Shown in pieces: positions 2,759 to 22,220 of a DNA stretch of 22,220 nucleotides. Under the pieces are notes generated by a model. That model was given only the letters and a program-made list of their open reading frames with translations, was not told where the DNA came from and made no database searches. A program made the position numbers and the translations under genes. Every line of letters begins with the position of its first letter. Within the stretch, counting starts at the first letter, position 1. The DNA is from a virus. The stretch lies in the IMG/VR virus record IMGVR_UViG_3300046520_000332, positions 1 through 22,220 of that record; one strand, written 5' to 3'.

Positions 2759-2836
2759 TTAAATATGAACTTACAGTACATATTATGTCGGAACTGAAAG
2801 TACATGCAAGGCCATGCGATATTGAACCTATGGTTC
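2759..2836. promoter_or_regulatory. OR-like operator region with PRM and PR
   Basis: Three copies of a 13-bp palindrome of consensus GAACynnnrGTnC are present: GAACTTACAGTAC (2767-2779), GAACTGAAAGTAC (2791-2803) and GAACCTATGGTTC (2824-2836). A leftward PR candidate has -35 TTGCAT (plus-strand 2804-2809), a 16-bp spacer and -10 CATAAT (2782-2787); the middle operator fills its spacer. A rightward PRM candidate has TTAAAT (2759-2764), 16 bp and TATTAT (2781-2786), with the first operator in its spacer. The third operator is centred on the cI start codon. Promoters are read by eye; the operators are supported by the matching sites at PL. Confidence 0.8.
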
Positions 2837-3684
2837 AAATAGAAGAGATACGCGCCGCGTTTGCCTCCCGCCTCAAAAAATCACTTGCCGAGAAAGGCAT
2901 TGATCAATGGGGGGCGGGTGCTCGGCTGGCGGAAATGACGAAAGTCACCCCAAAGGCTGCCAGCAAATGGCTCAATGGGGAGTCGATACCTGGCGCAGCA
3001 AAAATGCAGGCGATTGCCGAAAACCTCGGCGTCAAGATCGAATGGCTGCAACATGGTTCTGGCGAAGGACCTGGTCTGCTGGTTGATCAGGTTGTTGTTG
3101 GCGAATCCTCGACTGCCGCTGACAAGCTCCGCCAAATGCTCGCGGGCAAATCATTGGGCGAAGACCGCCTCCAGAAGCTGCTGGCTGTCGCTGAGGGCAG
3201 CGAGCCTGAGGGTGCCGTCGAAGTGCTGGTGAGCGATGCCTATCGTCCTGGCAAGGTCGGCGACGAGGTGTGGATCGCGCACTACGACGTACGCGGCGCG
3301 CTTGGTGGCGGCGAGGTTGCCCACGACTTTCCTGAGATGCTGCAGGATGTACGCGTCAGCCCCTCCCAACTCCGCTCTATGGGCGTTGAGTTCAAGGAGC
3401 ACTATCACCTGAAGGTGATCACTGGTTGGGGCCAGTCGATGACGCCAACGATCAAGCATGGCGACCCGTGCCTAGTGGACATCAGCATCAAGGACTTCAT
3501 CGGCGACGGGATTTATTATTTCTCGTACCAGGGCTTTCAGTACATCAAGCGCCTGCAGATGAAGGGAAAAGACAAATTCAAGATGATCTCGGACAACCGA
3601 AAGCATAAGGCCGAGGACATCTTCATCGACGAGACCTACATCCAGGCGCGCGTACTGTTTGTGTGGAATGGAAATTTGGTTTAG
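2830..3684 (+). CDS. CI-type repressor (XRE HTH plus S24/LexA-like domain)
   Basis: A 284-aa lysogeny repressor. An XRE-type HTH lies at about residues 24-50 (WGAGARLAEM, then TPKAASKWLNGES), and an S24 peptidase-like domain at about 145-284. The catalytic-type Ser is S203 in GWGQSMTPTIKHGD and the Lys is K240 in QYIKRLQ. The usual Ala-Gly cleavage pair is not obvious; the hinge reads RGALGGGEVAHDF. RecA-stimulated self-cleavage is therefore likely by family but not proven. ATG 2830 fits the HTH start better than ATG 2785, which would add 15 unlike residues; the ribosome site is weak either way. The start codon lies in the third operator, suggesting autoregulation. A small gene follows 2 nt after its stop. 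Confidence 0.92.
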   Translation: MVQIEEIRAAFASRLKKSLAEKGIDQWGAGARLAEMTKVTPKAASKWLNGESIPGAAKMQAIAENLGVKIEWLQHGSGEGPGLLVDQVVVGESSTAADKLRQMLAGKSLGEDRLQKLLAVAEGSEPEGAVEVLVSDAYRPGKVGDEVWIAHYDVRGALGGGEVAHDFPEMLQDVRVSPSQLRSMGVEFKEHYHLKVITGWGQSMTPTIKHGDPCLVDISIKDFIGDGIYYFSYQGFQYIKRLQMKGKDKFKMISDNRKHKAEDIFIDETYIQARVLFVWNGNLV

Positions 3685-3686
3685 CC

Positions 3687-3938
3687 ATGCCCCTCACCAA
3701 GCCCAACCAAGACCTCCGCCGCGACTTGAAACAAGCTGCCTCCCTGCTCAAGTGGTCAGGCGTGGATCTACTTCAGGCTGCCCGAAAGCTTTCGGAGGCA
3801 GGCCAAGAAGACGATGCCCAAGAGTTGCTGAAGATCGCCATGAGTTTTCAGGAAGTTGAGGACAAGCTGGCGGGGTATGCGGAAGAGGTGAAGGCGGGAA
3901 AGATTTTGCGGGAAAGCTGGAACCGAAAGCTCGAGTAA
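3687..3938 (+). CDS. Small hypothetical protein coupled to cI
   Basis: An 83-aa, charged, probably all-helical protein (core LKQAASLLKWSGVDLLQAAR) with no recognised family. ATG 3687 follows the repressor stop by two bases, so it is probably translated from the cI mRNA and made in lysogens. An in-frame ATG at 3663 inside cI would add 8 residues. It resembles no antitoxin or HTH that I can name. Its position between cI and the kinase module makes an immunity-linked role possible. Confidence 0.6.
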   Translation: MPLTKPNQDLRRDLKQAASLLKWSGVDLLQAARKLSEAGQEDDAQELLKIAMSFQEVEDKLAGYAEEVKAGKILRESWNRKLE

Positions 3939-3991
3939 TAAATAAAATAATCAATCATTCTAAATTAAGCTATCAGATGGGGCCGAATTTC

Positions 3992-4804
3992 ATGACCGTC
4001 GAAAACGAAGAGCCGAGTGGCGAAAAAATTGGCAGTCCTACTGAGAACCTGGAACCGGTTCGGCCGCCAATGTTTCAAAGACAGCTATTTCCTATCGCTG
4101 TAATGACTACCTACCCCAATGACCAAGGCTCAGCCGATCTCGGCATGATTGGCCTTGCAGCGAACGGCAAAGATTACGCCATCAAAACAGTGCTTGATGG
4201 AAATGGAATGATTCCCGCTTCCGAAGCTTTTTGCTACCAGCTGGCACGACATATATTAATTGGAACACCAGACTTCGATGTAATTGAACTTCACGATGGA
4301 TCTCACGCGTTTGGATCTGCGTGGGAAGGCGGCGTACAAACGCTAAAAAACAAAACCGAGATATTGCGCGTCCTATCGGGCGAAATCCCAATAGTCGGCT
4401 TAAAGTCTTTTTTCAGTAAAGTTTATGCACTCGATCTTTTCGTAAACAATGTCGACCGACACTTTGGAAACTATATATTCAGGCCAAGCTACAGCGGAAA
4501 AATCGGATTAGCATTTGATTTTAGTCGGGCGTGGTTTGCATTCAATCCGTTCGGATATGAAGCCACAGAGGATTGCAATACTTTTGCGGGTATCAATGCA
4601 ATCCGCTATTACGATCAATACGACCGGTCTGAAGCCGAAAAATGTCTTGACAAAATAGAAAACTTGACGGTTGACGATGTAAATACTATTATTTCAAACT
4701 TTCCAGAAGCGTGGATGTCTGAAGAAGATCGCCAGGGGTTCTTGAATTGGTGGGCGTCACACGCCAGAAAGGAACGCATTGAATTTCTTAAGGGAATACT
4801 TTAA
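3992..4804 (+). CDS. HipA-like serine/threonine kinase
   Basis: A 270-aa protein with the active-site landmarks of HipA-fold kinases. These are the ATP-site Lys in DYAIK (K65), a Glu in ASEAF, the catalytic loop VNNVDRHFGN (D155, N160) and the metal-site Asp in AFDFS (D176). It lacks the N-terminal subdomain of classical HipA and has no HipB-type HTH partner next door. The following gene is DUF3037-like, a pairing I recall for short HipA-like kinases. ATG 3992 is preferred because GGGG lies 9 nt upstream; ATG 3977 has no ribosome site. The gene is much richer in A+T than its neighbours, which suggests recent acquisition. It sits where lambda has rexAB. A toxin, exclusion or defence role is inferred. 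Confidence 0.82.
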   Translation: MTVENEEPSGEKIGSPTENLEPVRPPMFQRQLFPIAVMTTYPNDQGSADLGMIGLAANGKDYAIKTVLDGNGMIPASEAFCYQLARHILIGTPDFDVIELHDGSHAFGSAWEGGVQTLKNKTEILRVLSGEIPIVGLKSFFSKVYALDLFVNNVDRHFGNYIFRPSYSGKIGLAFDFSRAWFAFNPFGYEATEDCNTFAGINAIRYYDQYDRSEAEKCLDKIENLTVDDVNTIISNFPEAWMSEEDRQGFLNWWASHARKERIEFLKGIL

Positions 4805-4806
4805 TC

Positions 4807-5634
4807 ATGATCACATATGATTACTCTCTTATAAAATATATGCCGAGCAAAAAGCGCGGAGAAATAGTTAATATCGGAGTTATTGTATTCAACAAGTCCG
4901 GTATTGACTCGCGACTGCTCAGTGGCGCTGCCAAATTGCGCCTCCTCGATGGGGAGTCTTCTATTGATGATATTTCAGAATTTGAATTTCTTCTCGAAGA
5001 AGCAAAAAAAATATGCGCTAGTACTGACGAAATAGTAAAATTCCTTGGCATGTTTAAATGTGCTTTTACATTAAGCGCGAAAGCAAAATTTTCGATTGAT
5101 CACGAAGGCCAATACGAAGCTCAGTTAACAAGATTATTTAACGATCTAGTGAAGCCGTTTAGCGTTAGAGAAACAGTAAGAAAATCTTCTAGGATTCAAA
5201 CATTAGTAAAGCATAAGTTTGAGTCGCTTAATTTACTGGCAAAGAGCGCAGAAGAGCTAAGCTACCACAAGGTGGTACAGAATTATAACTTCAGTGACAA
5301 GTCAGGTTTTTCGGCGGATTTTCTTCTGAAAAACGGGAAATTCCATATCAGCGAAGTTATTGACTATAACGTCAACGACTTATCTGCAAAATTTAAAGAA
5401 ACCACGCTTAAGGTTATGACCTTCATGGAAGGTAAAAAGCACCTCGGGCAAGATTCTGGATGTTACTTTGTCTATTCAGCCTCCGGCTCTATAGAAAAAG
5501 ACATTCAGTCGCACTTGAATCTTGCAGAAGATTACAGCAGTTCAATCTTCAATATCGCATCAAAGCAGGAAGAAAAGTCTTACTTTGATCTTATGTCTAA
5601 GCTTGCAGGTGTAGAGGCGCCAATTTTCCATTGA
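4807..5634 (+). CDS. DUF3037-like protein, partner of the HipA-like kinase
   Basis: A 275-aa protein. Residues 1-50 carry the DUF3037 hallmark: a Tyr-rich start (YDYSLIKYMPSKKRGE) then VNIGVIVFN. DUF3037 members are uncharacterised and often adjoin HipA-like kinases. The C-terminal half (about 175-250: ADFLLKNGKFHISEVIDYNV, later GCYFVYSASG) looks like a separate alpha/beta domain and could be nuclease-like, but no catalytic set is secure. It starts 2 nt after the kinase stop, so the two are co-translated. It is equally AT-rich. A terminator follows 3 nt after its stop, which closes the module as one unit. Whether it is antitoxin, adaptor or substrate of the kinase is unknown. Confidence 0.75.
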   Translation: MITYDYSLIKYMPSKKRGEIVNIGVIVFNKSGIDSRLLSGAAKLRLLDGESSIDDISEFEFLLEEAKKICASTDEIVKFLGMFKCAFTLSAKAKFSIDHEGQYEAQLTRLFNDLVKPFSVRETVRKSSRIQTLVKHKFESLNLLAKSAEELSYHKVVQNYNFSDKSGFSADFLLKNGKFHISEVIDYNVNDLSAKFKETTLKVMTFMEGKKHLGQDSGCYFVYSASGSIEKDIQSHLNLAEDYSSSIFNIASKQEEKSYFDLMSKLAGVEAPIFH

Positions 5635-5637
5635 GTT

Positions 5638-5664
5638 AAGCCCGGCCTAGCGCCGGGCTTCTTG
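5638..5664 (+). terminator. Intrinsic terminator after the kinase/DUF3037 module
   Basis: AAGCCCGGC (5638-5646) and GCCGGGCTT (5652-5660) form a 9-bp stem with a 5-nt loop, followed by a short CTTGT tail. It ends the cI-to-DUF3037 transcript and separates it from the converging gene at 5678-5899. Confidence 0.75.
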
Positions 5665-6653: not shown

Positions 6654-6968
6654 TCAGAAAGGCACCGCCTCCACCTCTGGCTCTTCCTCGACTGATGCAG
6701 GGCGCTCATCATCCTCGGATGGTTCCCAGCGCAGCGTGATCGACTCGTCATCATCATGAAACATCATGTCGATGCCGTCGGCTTCCGACAGCGCGCCTAA
6801 TATCTCTGACCACTCCCTCTCCCCATCCGTATCAAGCCGATGGATCCTCACTTCGCGCCTTTCCTGGGCGATCGGGTGATTGATCATCGACGACACCCGC
6901 AGAACAAGCCGCTCCATGGGATTCATCGGGTTGATGCCTGAGTCGTTCTTTTTGCTCTGCTGCGCCAT
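6654..6968 (-). CDS. DUF1654-type protein
   Basis: A 104-aa protein. The core, about residues 18-80 (MERLVLRVSSMINHPIAQER, then VRIHRLDTDGEREWSEIL and ITLRW), matches my recollection of DUF1654, a small family of unknown function common in Pseudomonas and its prophages. The tail is very acidic. ATG 6968 has a near-perfect AAGGAGGTG ribosome site 5 nt upstream and is preferred to the upstream in-frame ATG. Its promoter candidate (TTTACG, 17 bp, TATGCT) has a repressor operator inside the spacer. It is therefore probably repressed in the lysogen and induced early, divergently from PL. Confidence 0.8.
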   Translation of the reverse strand: MAQQSKKNDSGINPMNPMERLVLRVSSMINHPIAQERREVRIHRLDTDGEREWSEILGALSEADGIDMMFHDDDESITLRWEPSEDDERPASVEEEPEVEAVPF

Positions 6969-7016
6969 AAACACCTCCTTAGCAAATGCTGTACATGCAT
7001 CCAGTATTCAATGGCG

Positions 7017-7141
7017 AGCATAGCGAACCTTTAGTTCAGCGTAAATCCCATCTCGACGGACGATTTTTGAACCTGAAAATGAACCGGATGAAAATTATGT
7101 ACTTTTGGTACTTGACGCAATGTGAACCTGTAGTTCATATT
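7017..7141. promoter_or_regulatory. OL-like operator region with PL and the DUF1654 promoter
   Basis: Three sites of the OR palindrome family are present: GAACCTTTAGTTC (7025-7037), GTACTTTTGGTAC (7099-7111) and GAACCTGTAGTTC (7124-7136). PL candidate: -35 TTGACG (7112-7117), 18-bp spacer holding the last operator, -10 CATATT (7136-7141). The middle operator abuts the -35. The leftward DUF1654 promoter candidate has -35 TTTACG (plus-strand 7040-7045), 17 bp and -10 TATGCT (7017-7022), with the first operator in the spacer. Site spacing (7105 to 7130, 25 bp) matches OR (24 bp). Confidence 0.82.
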
Positions 7142-7190
7142 TGCTCCATCGCAGCCACACAACCACTGCGAAGGGCCTCAACAGACCCGC

Positions 7191-7248
7191 CGCTCTTTAA
7201 CAGCCTGGAAACTTCGCGGATCGATCCCCGGCAACGGGCACAGCGCGA
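7191..7248 (+). promoter_or_regulatory. nut-like antitermination site (boxA plus GNRA hairpin)
   Basis: CGCTCTTTAACA at 7191-7202 equals the consensus boxA bound by NusB/NusE. Downstream, CCCG-GCAA-CGGG (7227-7238) is a hairpin with a GNRA tetraloop, like boxB folds. It is enclosed by TTCGCG (7213-7218) and CGCGAA (7243-7248). It lies about 45 nt into the expected PL transcript, as nutL does. The boxA-to-hairpin gap (24 nt) is longer than in lambda, so a put-like or unusual complex is possible. Confidence 0.68.
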
Positions 7249-7475
7249 AACATAAATTTCGATCTCCATGCAGGCTCTGGAACCTGCCGGACTCCCCTCA
7301 TGGGAGGACGCCAAACCATGCAAGCCAGCCGGCGAAGAACACCGAACACGAAATGTGTGACGCCGGCCAGGTGGGGAAACCGAGGCGACGAGCATGGGGC
7401 GGATAGCAATACGGAATTTTTCACTGATGCACCTGGGCGACCGGGTGCATTGGGAAAACAACCGAGGAAGCGGAA
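7249..7475 (+). other. PL leader with three further hairpins, no convincing gene
   Basis: Hairpins are GCAGG/CCTGC (7270-7274 with 7283-7287), CTCCC/GGGAG (7292-7296 with 7302-7306), only 4 nt apart, and ATGCACC/GGTGCAT (7427-7433 with 7444-7450). The last is just upstream of the next gene's ribosome site. An Arg-rich frame from ATG 7318 (MQASRRRTPNTK) has GGAGG upstream but runs into the next gene, so it is only a weak candidate for an N-like protein. Confidence 0.5.
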
Positions 7476-15054: not shown

Positions 15055-16860
15055 ATGTCCGCAGAACAGAAATTACCCCAGTTCATCAACCGCCAGCCAA
15101 GCATGGGCCTGCCATTCGAAAAAGAACTGGTGGTGGACCTGTTTGCGGGCGGCGGCGGCGCCAGCACTGGTATCGCACGGGCATACCGGGAGCCGGATGT
15201 CGCGGTAAACCACAACCCGATCGCCCTGGCCGTGCATCGCGCCAACCACCCGCAGACGGCGCACTATGTTGCGGACGTGTTCGAGGTCGACCCTGTCCTC
15301 GCCACCGGCGGCCAGCCGGTCGGAATTCTCTGGGCATCGCCAGACTGCCGCCACCACAGCAAGGCCAAGGGCGGTGCGCCGCGTGATCGCAAGGTTCGGG
15401 GGCTCGCATGGGTTGTTGTCCGCTGGGCGCACGCAACCCGGCCGCGCCTGATGTTCCTGGAGAACGTCGAAGAGTTCTGCGACTGGGGACCAGTTGACGA
15501 GGAAGGCCAGCCAATCAAGGCCGAGCGCGGTCGCACCTTCAAATCGTTTATTGCCGCGCTCAGCACCGGGCTACCGGCCGATCACCCCGACATGCCGGAG
15601 ATTCTTGAGTCGATCGGTGAGTTCGTTCCAGTGGAGGCGCTTGTTCGCGGTTTAGGCTACAACGTCGAATGGCGCGAACGCATCGCGGCAAACGCAAACG
15701 CCCCGACAATTCGGAAGCGTCTGTACCTGGTAGCGCGCAGCGACGGAAAGCCGATTGTCTGGCCAGCACCCACGCGCCACAAAGTGCCGACGGCGAAGCA
15801 GCAGCCTTGGCGCACCGCTGCCGAGTGCATCGACTGGAGCAACCTCGGCCGCACGATCTTCCGTGACAAGCCGATGGCACTGAACACCATGCGCCGCGTG
15901 GCCAAGGGCTGCTGGCGGCACGTGCTCACCAGCGCCAAGCCTTTCATTGTCCCGATGCGCGGAACGTCCGAATCGCACACCAGCACCCACGGCACCGACG
16001 AGGCACTGTCGACCATCAGCGCCGGCGGCACGCACCACGCACTGGTACAACCGGTAGCTGCGCCGTTCCTCACCGAGTGTGCCAACGGCTCGTCGCAGCG
16101 CAACTTCAGCGCACAGGAGCCGCTCCGCACTCAGGTTGCCCAGGTGAAGGGTGGGCACTTCGCGCTGGCCGCGGCGAACATGGTGACTTTGCGGAAAGGC
16201 TCAGTTGGAGCAGAAGTGACGGACCCGCTCAACGTGGTGGCCACCAGCACTGGGCACCACGCGGTATCCGCTGCGTTCTTCGAACAGGCGAATGGCGGGT
16301 ATTACAAAGGTGATGGCCGTTCGGCCTACGACCCCATCTCCACCATCTGCCAGTCCGGTGCCAACCAGCGGTTGGTGAATGCCTACCTGGTGAAGTACTA
16401 CGGCAACGAGAAGGACGGCATATCGCTCACCGAGCCGATGCACACCCTGCCGACGAAGGACCGGGTCGCACTGGTTGAGGTGGTGCAGGTGCCGGACACC
16501 CTGACGCCGGAGCAATTGGAAGGCGCCCGCCGTTGCGCCGCGTTCATGCATGAGCATCTACCCGAGCACTTCAAAGACCCGGCTGATCTGGTCATGGTCG
16601 GTGGCCATGTGCTGGTCGACATCACCTTGCGCATGTTGCAGCCACCTGAGCTGAAGGCAGCCCAGGGCTTCGACAAGGACTACATCATCGATCGCGGTCG
16701 CTTCGTCGACCCTGTCACCGGTGCCGAAGAGTGGCGAGACATCAACAAGACGGACCAGGTGCGGCTAATTGGCAACAGCGTCTGTCCGGACGAAGCTGAA
16801 GCTTTGGTCAGTGCCAACGCTGCCGAAATCATCGAGCTTTATCAGCGCCTCGCGGCCTGA
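15055..16860 (+). CDS. DNA (cytosine-5) methyltransferase
   Basis: A 601-aa C5-methyltransferase that transfers methyl groups from S-adenosylmethionine to cytosine in phage DNA. Motif I is VVDLFAGGGGASTGI (residues 26-40), motif IV is ASPDCRHHSKAKG with the catalytic Cys at C98, motif VI is LENVEEF (135-141), motif VIII is IRKRLYLV (219-226), and motif X is LIGNSVCP (571-578). The PDC order, instead of PC, is usual in a branch of phage enzymes. The long middle (about 230-560) holds the target-recognition region. GAGG lies about 7 nt before the ATG. No cognate nuclease is adjacent, so it is an orphan enzyme, probably protecting phage DNA from host restriction. The target sequence cannot be read from the protein. 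Confidence 0.92.
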   Translation: MSAEQKLPQFINRQPSMGLPFEKELVVDLFAGGGGASTGIARAYREPDVAVNHNPIALAVHRANHPQTAHYVADVFEVDPVLATGGQPVGILWASPDCRHHSKAKGGAPRDRKVRGLAWVVVRWAHATRPRLMFLENVEEFCDWGPVDEEGQPIKAERGRTFKSFIAALSTGLPADHPDMPEILESIGEFVPVEALVRGLGYNVEWRERIAANANAPTIRKRLYLVARSDGKPIVWPAPTRHKVPTAKQQPWRTAAECIDWSNLGRTIFRDKPMALNTMRRVAKGCWRHVLTSAKPFIVPMRGTSESHTSTHGTDEALSTISAGGTHHALVQPVAAPFLTECANGSSQRNFSAQEPLRTQVAQVKGGHFALAAANMVTLRKGSVGAEVTDPLNVVATSTGHHAVSAAFFEQANGGYYKGDGRSAYDPISTICQSGANQRLVNAYLVKYYGNEKDGISLTEPMHTLPTKDRVALVEVVQVPDTLTPEQLEGARRCAAFMHEHLPEHFKDPADLVMVGGHVLVDITLRMLQPPELKAAQGFDKDYIIDRGRFVDPVTGAEEWRDINKTDQVRLIGNSVCPDEAEALVSANAAEIIELYQRLAA

Positions 16861-17992: not shown

Positions 17993-18565
17993 CTAGTTGG
18001 TCATTCGCGCAATTTCTTTGAGTTTGGAAAACCCCGAAGTTTGTGTCAGCCGCCCCATTACTTGAATACTTTTGACAACGCGATCTATTGGATCACCCGG
18101 ATTAAAAAAATAATTTTCCTCTTCGACGCGTTTAATTATCTCGCGACGCTTCTCTTGGTATTTCTCGTCGCTTGCGTCAAGCTGACATAGCATTTCCTGA
18201 GCGGCAACGGCTTTTGCGTTTATATTCACCATAAAATTCGAGCGCATATCAGTCCTCGCCTCGCTAATTTCCGAGCAGGCAAGGAAAAATCTGTTGAAGT
18301 GACTTAGATCATCCGTGGATAAATCAGAAACAAACAAATGCTTGTTAATTTCCCAATTTTTTGCTCCTTGAATATTACCCATAAATCTGTCAAACGAGTT
18401 CCGCTGCAACACCTCCAAAATAACCTGTTCAGCATGACGAATATCCATTATTAAAATTATCGCTGCACTTCTACGCTTATCTTGTTGCTGAAGAAAAAAT
18501 ACAACCAAGGCGACAAGCCCAACAACTACCGTAACAACGCCATTGATCCACTGACCTGAGTCCAT
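17993..18565 (-). CDS. Single-pass membrane protein with helical cytoplasmic domain
   Basis: A 190-aa protein. One transmembrane helix lies at about residues 8-26 (NGVVTVVVGLVALVVFFLQ). A long helical cytoplasmic part follows, with a charged segment (KYQEKRREIIKRVEEENYFF). The DNA is AT-rich compared with its flanks and the gene opposes the PL operon, so it looks like an acquired moron. ATG 18565 gives a compact N-terminus with GGTGA 4 nt upstream. ATG 18616 has a better GGAGGG but only 3 nt away and would add 17 residues. Superinfection exclusion or defence is plausible but unproven. Confidence 0.65.
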   Translation of the reverse strand: MDSGQWINGVVTVVVGLVALVVFFLQQQDKRRSAAIILIMDIRHAEQVILEVLQRNSFDRFMGNIQGAKNWEINKHLFVSDLSTDDLSHFNRFFLACSEISEARTDMRSNFMVNINAKAVAAQEMLCQLDASDEKYQEKRREIIKRVEEENYFFNPGDPIDRVVKSIQVMGRLTQTSGFSKLKEIARMTN

Positions 18566-18676
18566 ATCTTCACCAATAGTTTTATAAACAAACCGCCTTC
18601 TTATGTATCTTGTCATAACCCTCCGAGAAAAACCTCCCCCTTCAAAGTCAGCCGCTATAACGGCAAGGACGAAGTC

Positions 18677-18829
18677 ATGCCTGAAGAAACTGTTTTGATC
18701 CAGCCGCTGCCGGTCGAACGCGACACCGATGGCTGGTGGCCCCACCCCGACTACACGGGCAAACGGCACTTTTACTTCGGTTACCCCGCTCAATCCCCAG
18801 AGCAGCGAAAAGAACTTCGAAACCTTTAA
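18677..18829 (+). CDS. Small hypothetical protein (50 aa)
   Basis: ATG 18677 has AAGGA 7 nt upstream. The product is rich in aromatic residues (a DTDGWWPHPDYTGKRHFYFG segment) and has a helical end (SPEQRKELRNL). No family is recognised. It resumes rightward gene order after the leftward membrane gene and precedes the DUF4224 gene by 37 nt. Confidence 0.6.
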   Translation: MPEETVLIQPLPVERDTDGWWPHPDYTGKRHFYFGYPAQSPEQRKELRNL

Positions 18830-18866
18830 CCACCTTCTGCCGCCACGCGCGGCATGGAGCATCATC

Positions 18867-19109
18867 ATGGAAACCGAAATTCTCTCAGACGAAGAACTGG
18901 CGGAACTCACCGGCTACAAGGCCAGGGCCTACCAGCGGCGCTGGTTGGTGGATCGCCACTGGGTATTCGTCGAAAGCCGCGGTAAGCGCCCGCTCGTTGG
19001 CCGGATGTACGCCCGCATGAAACTCGGCATGATCTCGCCCACCATCACCGACCCCAACCCTCCGCCGGCGGCGCCGGCATGGACGCCTGATTTCTCTCGA
19101 GTGAACTGA
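18867..19109 (+). CDS. DUF4224 protein in the excisionase position
   Basis: An 80-aa protein. Residues 5-45 (LSDEELAELTGYKARAYQRR, then WLVDRHWVFVES and VGRMYARMKLG) match my recollection of DUF4224, a small winged-helix-like domain often found immediately before phage integrases. A directionality factor (Xis-like) role is inferred from family context. GGAG lies 8 nt before ATG 18867. It is separated from int by one base, so the two are coupled. Confidence 0.78.
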   Translation: METEILSDEELAELTGYKARAYQRRWLVDRHWVFVESRGKRPLVGRMYARMKLGMISPTITDPNPPPAAPAWTPDFSRVN

Positions 19110-20783: not shown

Positions 20784-22220
20784 TCAATCGACTACCGCCT
20801 CTTCTTTCAACCGCTTGGTCTTAACGGCATCAGTCGAGACAGGCTTGGCGTCTGCCGCTTTCAAGTCCTTGCTAAACGTCCCGTCGTTCTCGCCCTTGAA
20901 GAAGTTCTTGCCGTAAATCAGCAGGCACAACACCACGCCAATGGCGAATGCCCAGCTCGCGCCCTTGATGGCTAACATTGCGCCGATCACACCAGCGATG
21001 CCGAGGTCGCGCTGGCTGCGGGCTTCCAGAATCCCAAGACGCACGCTCACGTAGCCCTGAATCAATAGCGTCAGCGACAACGCTACACCCAGAATCGGCT
21101 GCACCAGCGTCACCACTGGCAGGAGCAGTAAACCGGTATTGGTGCCCCAGCGGAACGACCCAACGCCGCCGATGATCGACTTCATCGCCTTTGGTCCGCC
21201 CTTAAAGCGCTCGATTACCACCACCAGCATCGCCGCCCACTTCGGCCCGCACATCGCCACGTCCGGACCAAAGATGCTCATGAAAGCGTTACGCGCGCCA
21301 AAGATCAGGTGCGCTCGATCCGGGTTGTAATCGACAATTTCGTCAGTGCGGACTTTTTCCGCTTCATCCAGCAGCGATTTCGCACTCAACACATCGCCAA
21401 AGACGATGATGTACACCGCCAACATGGTCGGCAGCGCCGAGATGAACATCGACAACGGGGGCATACCCAGACCAAACACCGTGTAGTTGCTCCACAACCC
21501 GGCAAAGTCAGGTTTGCTGATGCCCCACTGGATAGTTGGCCATGGCGCTTCGCCGAACAGCGGCGCAATCACTACCGCCAGCAGGATGATCGGCAGAATC
21601 CCGAGTTTGGCGAAATTCCACCAGAACCGGTTGCGCTGCTTCAGCTCGTTGAAGTGCTGGGAGAAGATCAAATAGAACGCCAGGCCGACGGCAATCGAGA
21701 TGGTCCACGGCAGCACGTTGAACTTGCCGCCGACCTGAAACACTGCAATCACCGCACTCAATCCTGCGCCGACGATGATCCCTGACTTGATCGCGGGCGG
21801 CACGTATTCGACTACCTTCTTCGCCATGCCGGTGGCACCCAGCGCAATCGAGAACACCCCGAGCATCAGCTGGAAGGCAATCAAGGCGTGGACACGCTCC
21901 GGGCCCATGGGGAATTGCGCGCAGTAGGCCATCAACAATGGAACAGCCGGCGTAATCCAACCCGGTACGGTCGGATCGCCCAGCAGATGGTGCGTGAGGT
22001 ACAGCAGGCCGTTGAGCATCACCACCGCCAGCGCGACCTCGAACGGCATGCCAAGCAGCTCAGTCATCAGCGGGATGGCAGCCAGATCGACGGCGCACAT
22101 CAGCAAACCCTGGAGGTAGTCCGGCATCTCAAACTTGTAGTGAATGAACGGCAAACGCACCTTGAACGGGCCGAGAGGAATGTACGGGCTTTCGCGCCCC
22201 GCTTGTGGGAGATCGGACAT
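20784..22220 (-). CDS. Host multi-pass permease, NCS2/SulP-like
   Basis: A 478-aa integral membrane protein with about 12 hydrophobic segments (for example AIPLMTELLGMPFEVALAVV and FNVLPWTISIAVGLAFYLIF). The start is exactly at the window edge, so it cannot be excluded that translation begins further upstream. A loop with a DPTVPGWITPAVPLLMAY signature recalls nucleobase or anion permeases of the NCS2/SulP superfamily. It may belong to a DUF3360-type uncharacterised family (from memory, unchecked). The C-terminal 35 residues are a charged cytoplasmic tail. The substrate is unknown. It is host chromosome beyond attR. Confidence 0.8.
   Translation of the reverse strand: MSDLPQAGRESPYIPLGPFKVRLPFIHYKFEMPDYLQGLLMCAVDLAAIPLMTELLGMPFEVALAVVMLNGLLYLTHHLLGDPTVPGWITPAVPLLMAYCAQFPMGPERVHALIAFQLMLGVFSIALGATGMAKKVVEYVPPAIKSGIIVGAGLSAVIAVFQVGGKFNVLPWTISIAVGLAFYLIFSQHFNELKQRNRFWWNFAKLGILPIILLAVVIAPLFGEAPWPTIQWGISKPDFAGLWSNYTVFGLGMPPLSMFISALPTMLAVYIIVFGDVLSAKSLLDEAEKVRTDEIVDYNPDRAHLIFGARNAFMSIFGPDVAMCGPKWAAMLVVVIERFKGGPKAMKSIIGGVGSFRWGTNTGLLLLPVVTLVQPILGVALSLTLLIQGYVSVRLGILEARSQRDLGIAGVIGAMLAIKGASWAFAIGVVLCLLIYGKNFFKGENDGTFSKDLKAADAKPVSTDAVKTKRLKEEAVVD

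Follow-up and report, generated by a model that had tools for sequence, protein, structure and literature searches.

The two adjacent genes at 3992..4804 and 4807..5634 of the 22,220-bp virus record analysed here (the window) very probably constitute a toxin-antitoxin-like anti-phage system of the HipAD type (PDC-M66), carried as exchangeable cargo of the rex slot, in which a DUF3037 protein restrains a HipA-like kinase that stops growth upon infection. The system type itself (PDC-M66, DS-6/HipAD) is already known, not new, and what our analysis adds to it is the recurrent position in the rex slot. In the window and its homologues we observe both genes, the catalytic residues, the HipA fold, universal coupling of the pair, its recurrent place behind repressors and the exchange of cargo, while the kinase dependence and the toxin-antitoxin logic of the mechanism are most likely by analogy with characterized relatives.

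Open reading frames and profile matches show that the record contains the left portion of a prophage of Pseudomonas type, in which an antirepressor (Rha), a CII-like activator, a cro-like gene and cI are followed by rightward genes leading to the integrase; scanning the window for tRNAs and Rfam families gave no hits. The cI-type repressor (2785..3684, plus strand; phrog_4) combines an HTH with an S24 peptidase domain (Pfam HTH_3, 36.7 bits; Peptidase_S24, 51.1 bits). The region between cro and cI contains operator-like repeats (2762..2805), a palindrome at 2762-2784 and a second, half-matching copy at 2791-2805, 24 bp apart. As the latter lies inside the long cI ORF that begins at 2785, the true start of cI is probably the ATG at 2830. 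Located 3' of cI on the same strand are a small ORF with a PHROGs match to phrog_6388 (3690..3938), the kinase gene and the DUF3037 gene, both intact and with only 2 bp between the stop of the former and the start of the latter, and an intrinsic-terminator-like hairpin (5638..5660) that closes the unit. Its stem of 9 pairs, 7 of them G-C, is the longest found, and such hairpins are no rarer in shuffled sequence. The GC content drops to 44.8% in the kinase gene and 38.5% in the DUF3037 gene, against 56.1% in cI and 55.8% in the window as a whole. The initial annotation, which had described an AT-rich, tightly coupled pair between cI and a terminator, is borne out in these points, except that it had not mentioned the intervening phrog_6388 ORF. 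Its claim that a HipB-type antitoxin is missing also holds: ORFs, Pfam and PHROGs reveal cI as the sole HTH gene from cI to the terminator, with no HipB-like gene in the operon. A search directly 5' of the kinase (3938-3992) for a promoter-like site or operator of its own found none; as no consensus promoter precedes the kinase, which is a weak ground in Pseudomonas, the pair and cI probably share one transcript in the lysogen, of which cI is likely to be the first gene.

The kinase start at 3992 agrees with the 80%-identical homologue from locus L002, the earliest possible ATG being at 3977. The 270-aa product scores 25.8 bits against Pfam HipA_2, slightly below the cut-off of 27, and 44 of 46 aligned kinase homologues match this family at E<=0.01. 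An AlphaFold2 model (pLDDT 91.5, pTM 0.85) has its best structure matches in CtkA, HipT, HipA and PI4-kinase, and contains the kinase core only, the N-subdomain 1 of HipA being absent. Across 44-46 kinase sequences there is no variation at K65, E78, D148, N153, D155, R156, N160 and D176 (numbering from the start at 3992). Given this invariance and the match of the model to HipA-fold kinases, the earlier assignment of K65, D155, N160 and D176 as intact catalytic residues of a short HipA-fold kinase is correct.

The 275-aa partner, the predicted antitoxin or sensor of the predicted toxin/effector kinase, matches Pfam DUF3037 over about its first 70 residues with 37.9 bits (cut-off 22.6). Its model displays two well-formed domains whose mutual orientation is uncertain (pLDDT 89.6, pTM 0.55), the second of which (about residues 128-270) folds separately from the DUF3037 domain, in agreement with the extra C-terminal domain that had been noticed before. 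The top structure matches of this domain are weak (E 0.01-0.05) and mostly restriction-endonuclease-like, namely PspGI, Cdn1, XisH-like, Can2 and FAAP24. All 45 sequences have an acidic residue at position 171 (D/E171), in the second strand of the core, and 39 of them retain E183, with a hydrophobic residue in place of the lysine of the ExK motif. A restriction-endonuclease-like core devoid of this lysine suggests that the C-terminal domain is probably non-cleaving, and it possibly binds DNA, as far as such weak structure matches can indicate.

The profiles PDC-M66A/B, which PADLOC lists as a phage defence candidate, recover both proteins in the same order (E = 6e-4 for the kinase and 2e-8 for the DUF3037 protein), with the label of the kinase taken alone being ambiguous, since it scores only 17 bits against PDC-M66A and slightly better against PDC-M03A. 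Three features that define HipAD/PDC-M66/DS-6 are present, namely a HipA-fold kinase with intact catalytic residues, an adjacent co-directional DUF3037 gene and the absence of a HipB-type antitoxin; judged by its sequence, the window pair is best classed as a divergent new member of this known type. Brenes and Laub 2025 (cited in PMC13092281) identified the DS-6 system, now called HipAD, in prophages of E. coli. Mutation of a catalytic residue abolishes its defence, and its kinase and DUF3037 protein are predicted to form a complex, with a contact between DS-6B and DNA predicted by AlphaFold3 (DeWeirdt et al., PMC13092281). Compared by description, DS-6 shares with the window pair a HipA-family kinase followed by DUF3037 without HipB, and a prophage setting, the E. 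coli relatives lying directly behind cI. It differs in that the window kinase shares just 28-29% identity with its E. coli counterparts, the host is Pseudomonas, and DS-6B is said to carry a DUF1829 domain behind DUF3037 (PMC13092281), which Pfam did not detect at E up to 10 in the window copy and 46 homologues, E. coli included (n=47). A separate search for DUF1829 proteins returned nothing, and the control genomes were likewise empty. A HipA-like/DUF3037 pair at Retron-Sda1 defends against Bas51; deletion of its kinase abolishes defence, deletion of its DUF3037 gene is toxic and the retron parts are dispensable (PMC12548924). This is the same two-gene pair, including a C-terminal region of the DUF3037 protein past the Pfam domain, but at Retron-Sda1 it forms part of a retron operon, whereas no such operon is seen in the window. 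The window pair shares with HipBA and HipBST a HipA-fold kinase toxin. It is distinguished from HipBA by the lack of a hipB HTH gene directly upstream and by a kinase of 270 aa without the N-terminal HipA subdomain, as against about 440 aa in full-length HipA, and from HipBST by having two genes rather than three (hipB, hipS, hipT) and no HTH partner; further, its inhibitor gene lies downstream of the kinase and theirs upstream.

As a protein search of annotated phage records yielded no relative, we drew homologues from three sources, namely IMG/VR, GTDB genomes and plasmids. Wherever the kinase reaches 200 aa or more (72 loci, representing 52 clusters at 90% kinase identity), a same-strand DUF3037 gene lies 3' of it, at a gap of -93 to +12 bp. 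Thus, the linkage in other genomes, whose absence the initial annotation had named in advance as a refutation, is found throughout. Three remote loci (L091, L092, L094) display a DUF3037 match with no kinase detected. This strict coupling, together with several plasmid-borne copies and the toxicity of the DUF3037 deletion in relatives (PMC12548924), would also suit a prophage addiction module, in which a toxin kinase and a labile DUF3037 antitoxin kill cells that lose the prophage and phage defence is a by-product. We consider this improbable, as the protection conferred by the relatives is real and kinase-dependent, and the spot behind cI is where exclusion genes such as lambda rexAB and RexABpp reside, not a typical addiction locus.

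The pair is a cassette between repressor and phage backbone that has repeatedly been joined to unrelated repressors, as indicated by four observations: 1) The pair of the window aligns with L002 and L103 at 73-75% identity on the DNA level, starting near 4058 and reaching 5630 and 5595 respectively, while the flanks are not shared. 2) Phage SC_8_H2H8_2017 (L006) shares cI and the small phrog_6388 ORF with the window at the DNA level up to 3930, and then encodes a BRCT-domain protein (6735-7256) instead, itself a possible exclusion gene. 3) Identity of L105 with the window resumes at 5639, in the terminator, at 83%. 4) Kinase and cI identities to the window are decoupled, being 80% and 45% in L002, and 47-48% and 16% in L065 and L066. 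The phrog_6388 ORF belongs to the backbone, outside the module, and the hairpin at 5638-5660 marks where the exchangeable cassette ends on the right. Simple co-inheritance of the pair with cI was considered and rejected, the kinase and cI identities being uncorrelated (L002, L065). Another conceivable role is in regulating lysogeny, whereby cI expression or phage induction would be tuned by the kinase or by the DUF3037 protein through its DNA-binding-like C-terminal domain, akin to what has been proposed for lambda RexA at PRM. The place within the cI transcript, the potential of a restriction-endonuclease-like fold without the ExK lysine to bind DNA, and the DNA contact predicted for DS-6B by AlphaFold3 (PMC13092281) would accord with such a role. 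It is nevertheless quite unlikely, as the pair moves between cI genes as unrelated as those of L065 and L066, and as copies in L011, L012 and L018 lie outside prophage repressor loci, directly adjoining type I restriction-modification genes. Among Pseudomonas phages, VW-6S (L007, 6663-8324) and D14O (L008, 6543-7366) carry other, unassigned genes, with no Pfam match, in the slot behind cI.

A co-directional S24 repressor gene ends <=700 bp upstream of the pair in 22 of the 52 clusters, often at a distance of 3-150 bp. Among the purely viral clusters the count is 17 of 31, as opposed to 2 of 304 for the same placement among other genes of the viral loci, a comparison that is rough because the slot is occupied by the pair itself, though the excess is nonetheless very large. 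Further clusters (L045, L052, L060, L013, L085) have a non-S24 HTH repressor in that place. All five Pseudomonas genomes that carry a relative, out of 400 searched, have cI upstream of it. The order in E. coli lambdoid prophages is ren-P-O-cro | cI-kinase-DUF3037-kil-gam-bet-exo-int, so that the pair there occupies the rexAB locus itself, between cI and kil-gam-bet-exo; among 5,426 complete genomes of E. coli, 24 combine cI with this lambdoid variant of the pair, and a Klebsiella phage-plasmid has the order cI-kinase-DUF3037 too. The rexAB-like place proposed initially is thus well founded. RexABpp of the P. putida prophage P1 is a validated RexAB-type defence pair in a cI operon (PMC12894663). 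The window pair shares with it and with lambda rexAB, whose function is exclusion, the same place in the repressor transcript, but there is no sequence or domain relation, RexB being a membrane effector as against a kinase pair in the window; searches of Pfam, NCBIfam and PHROGs returned no RexA- or RexB-like match. No paper in the literature searched describes the rex slot as a place where HipAD regularly occurs; the main HipAD paper lay beyond that search, so the observation is possibly known already.

The PDC-M66 match and the published defence by relatives (PMC13092281, PMC12548924) argue, by analogy, for the reading as a defence system that the initial annotation had offered, and by the same analogy the window copy is presumably active. 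In the mechanism we favor for this HipAD-type pair, it would probably be expressed together with cI in the lysogen, presumably from the cI promoter, and the DUF3037 protein would bind and restrain the HipA-like kinase, plausibly by direct inhibition. Infection by another phage may then lift this restraint, upon which the freed kinase would phosphorylate a host or phage protein and growth would halt ahead of phage release. Of the two modes suggested initially, such abortive infection fits better, whereas superinfection exclusion in the strict sense of a block to entry is unsupported. It is very unlikely that the kinase merely serves lysogenic conversion, acting for instance on host physiology or persistence with no part in defence, since the constant DUF3037 partner and the defence data of the relatives speak against this and no secretion signal was seen on inspection of the sequence by eye, even though Helicobacter CtkA is among the closest fold matches and HipA is a persistence kinase.

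A recently described kinase defence is hereby tied to the classical rexAB locus, with the module recurring behind diverse repressors in Pseudomonas and enterobacterial prophages. This yields a simple search rule for exclusion genes, namely inspecting the cargo from cI to the next backbone gene, and with a tractable kinase at hand the old question of rex-slot gene function becomes open to experiment. More speculatively, and with somewhat less confidence than doubt, the rex slot could be a general hotspot of swappable exclusion cargo in unrelated temperate phages, with HipAD among its commonest occupants and lambda rexAB as one case of a widespread architecture, and the restriction-endonuclease-like C-terminal domain of the DUF3037 protein could be the infection sensor of HipAD.

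Three further genes of the window deserve mention. A 601-aa cytosine-methyltransferase-like protein (15055-16860, plus strand; DrmMII/MTase_II profiles), for which no restriction partner is seen in the window, is probably an orphan methyltransferase. An AT-rich ORF of 305 aa (17993-18910, minus strand; about 40% GC) with no Pfam or PADLOC match adjoins the integrase as a second cargo-like gene. Behind the integrase, a permease-like ORF (20784-22220, minus strand) runs past the end of the window, and this region is probably host chromosome flanking the prophage.
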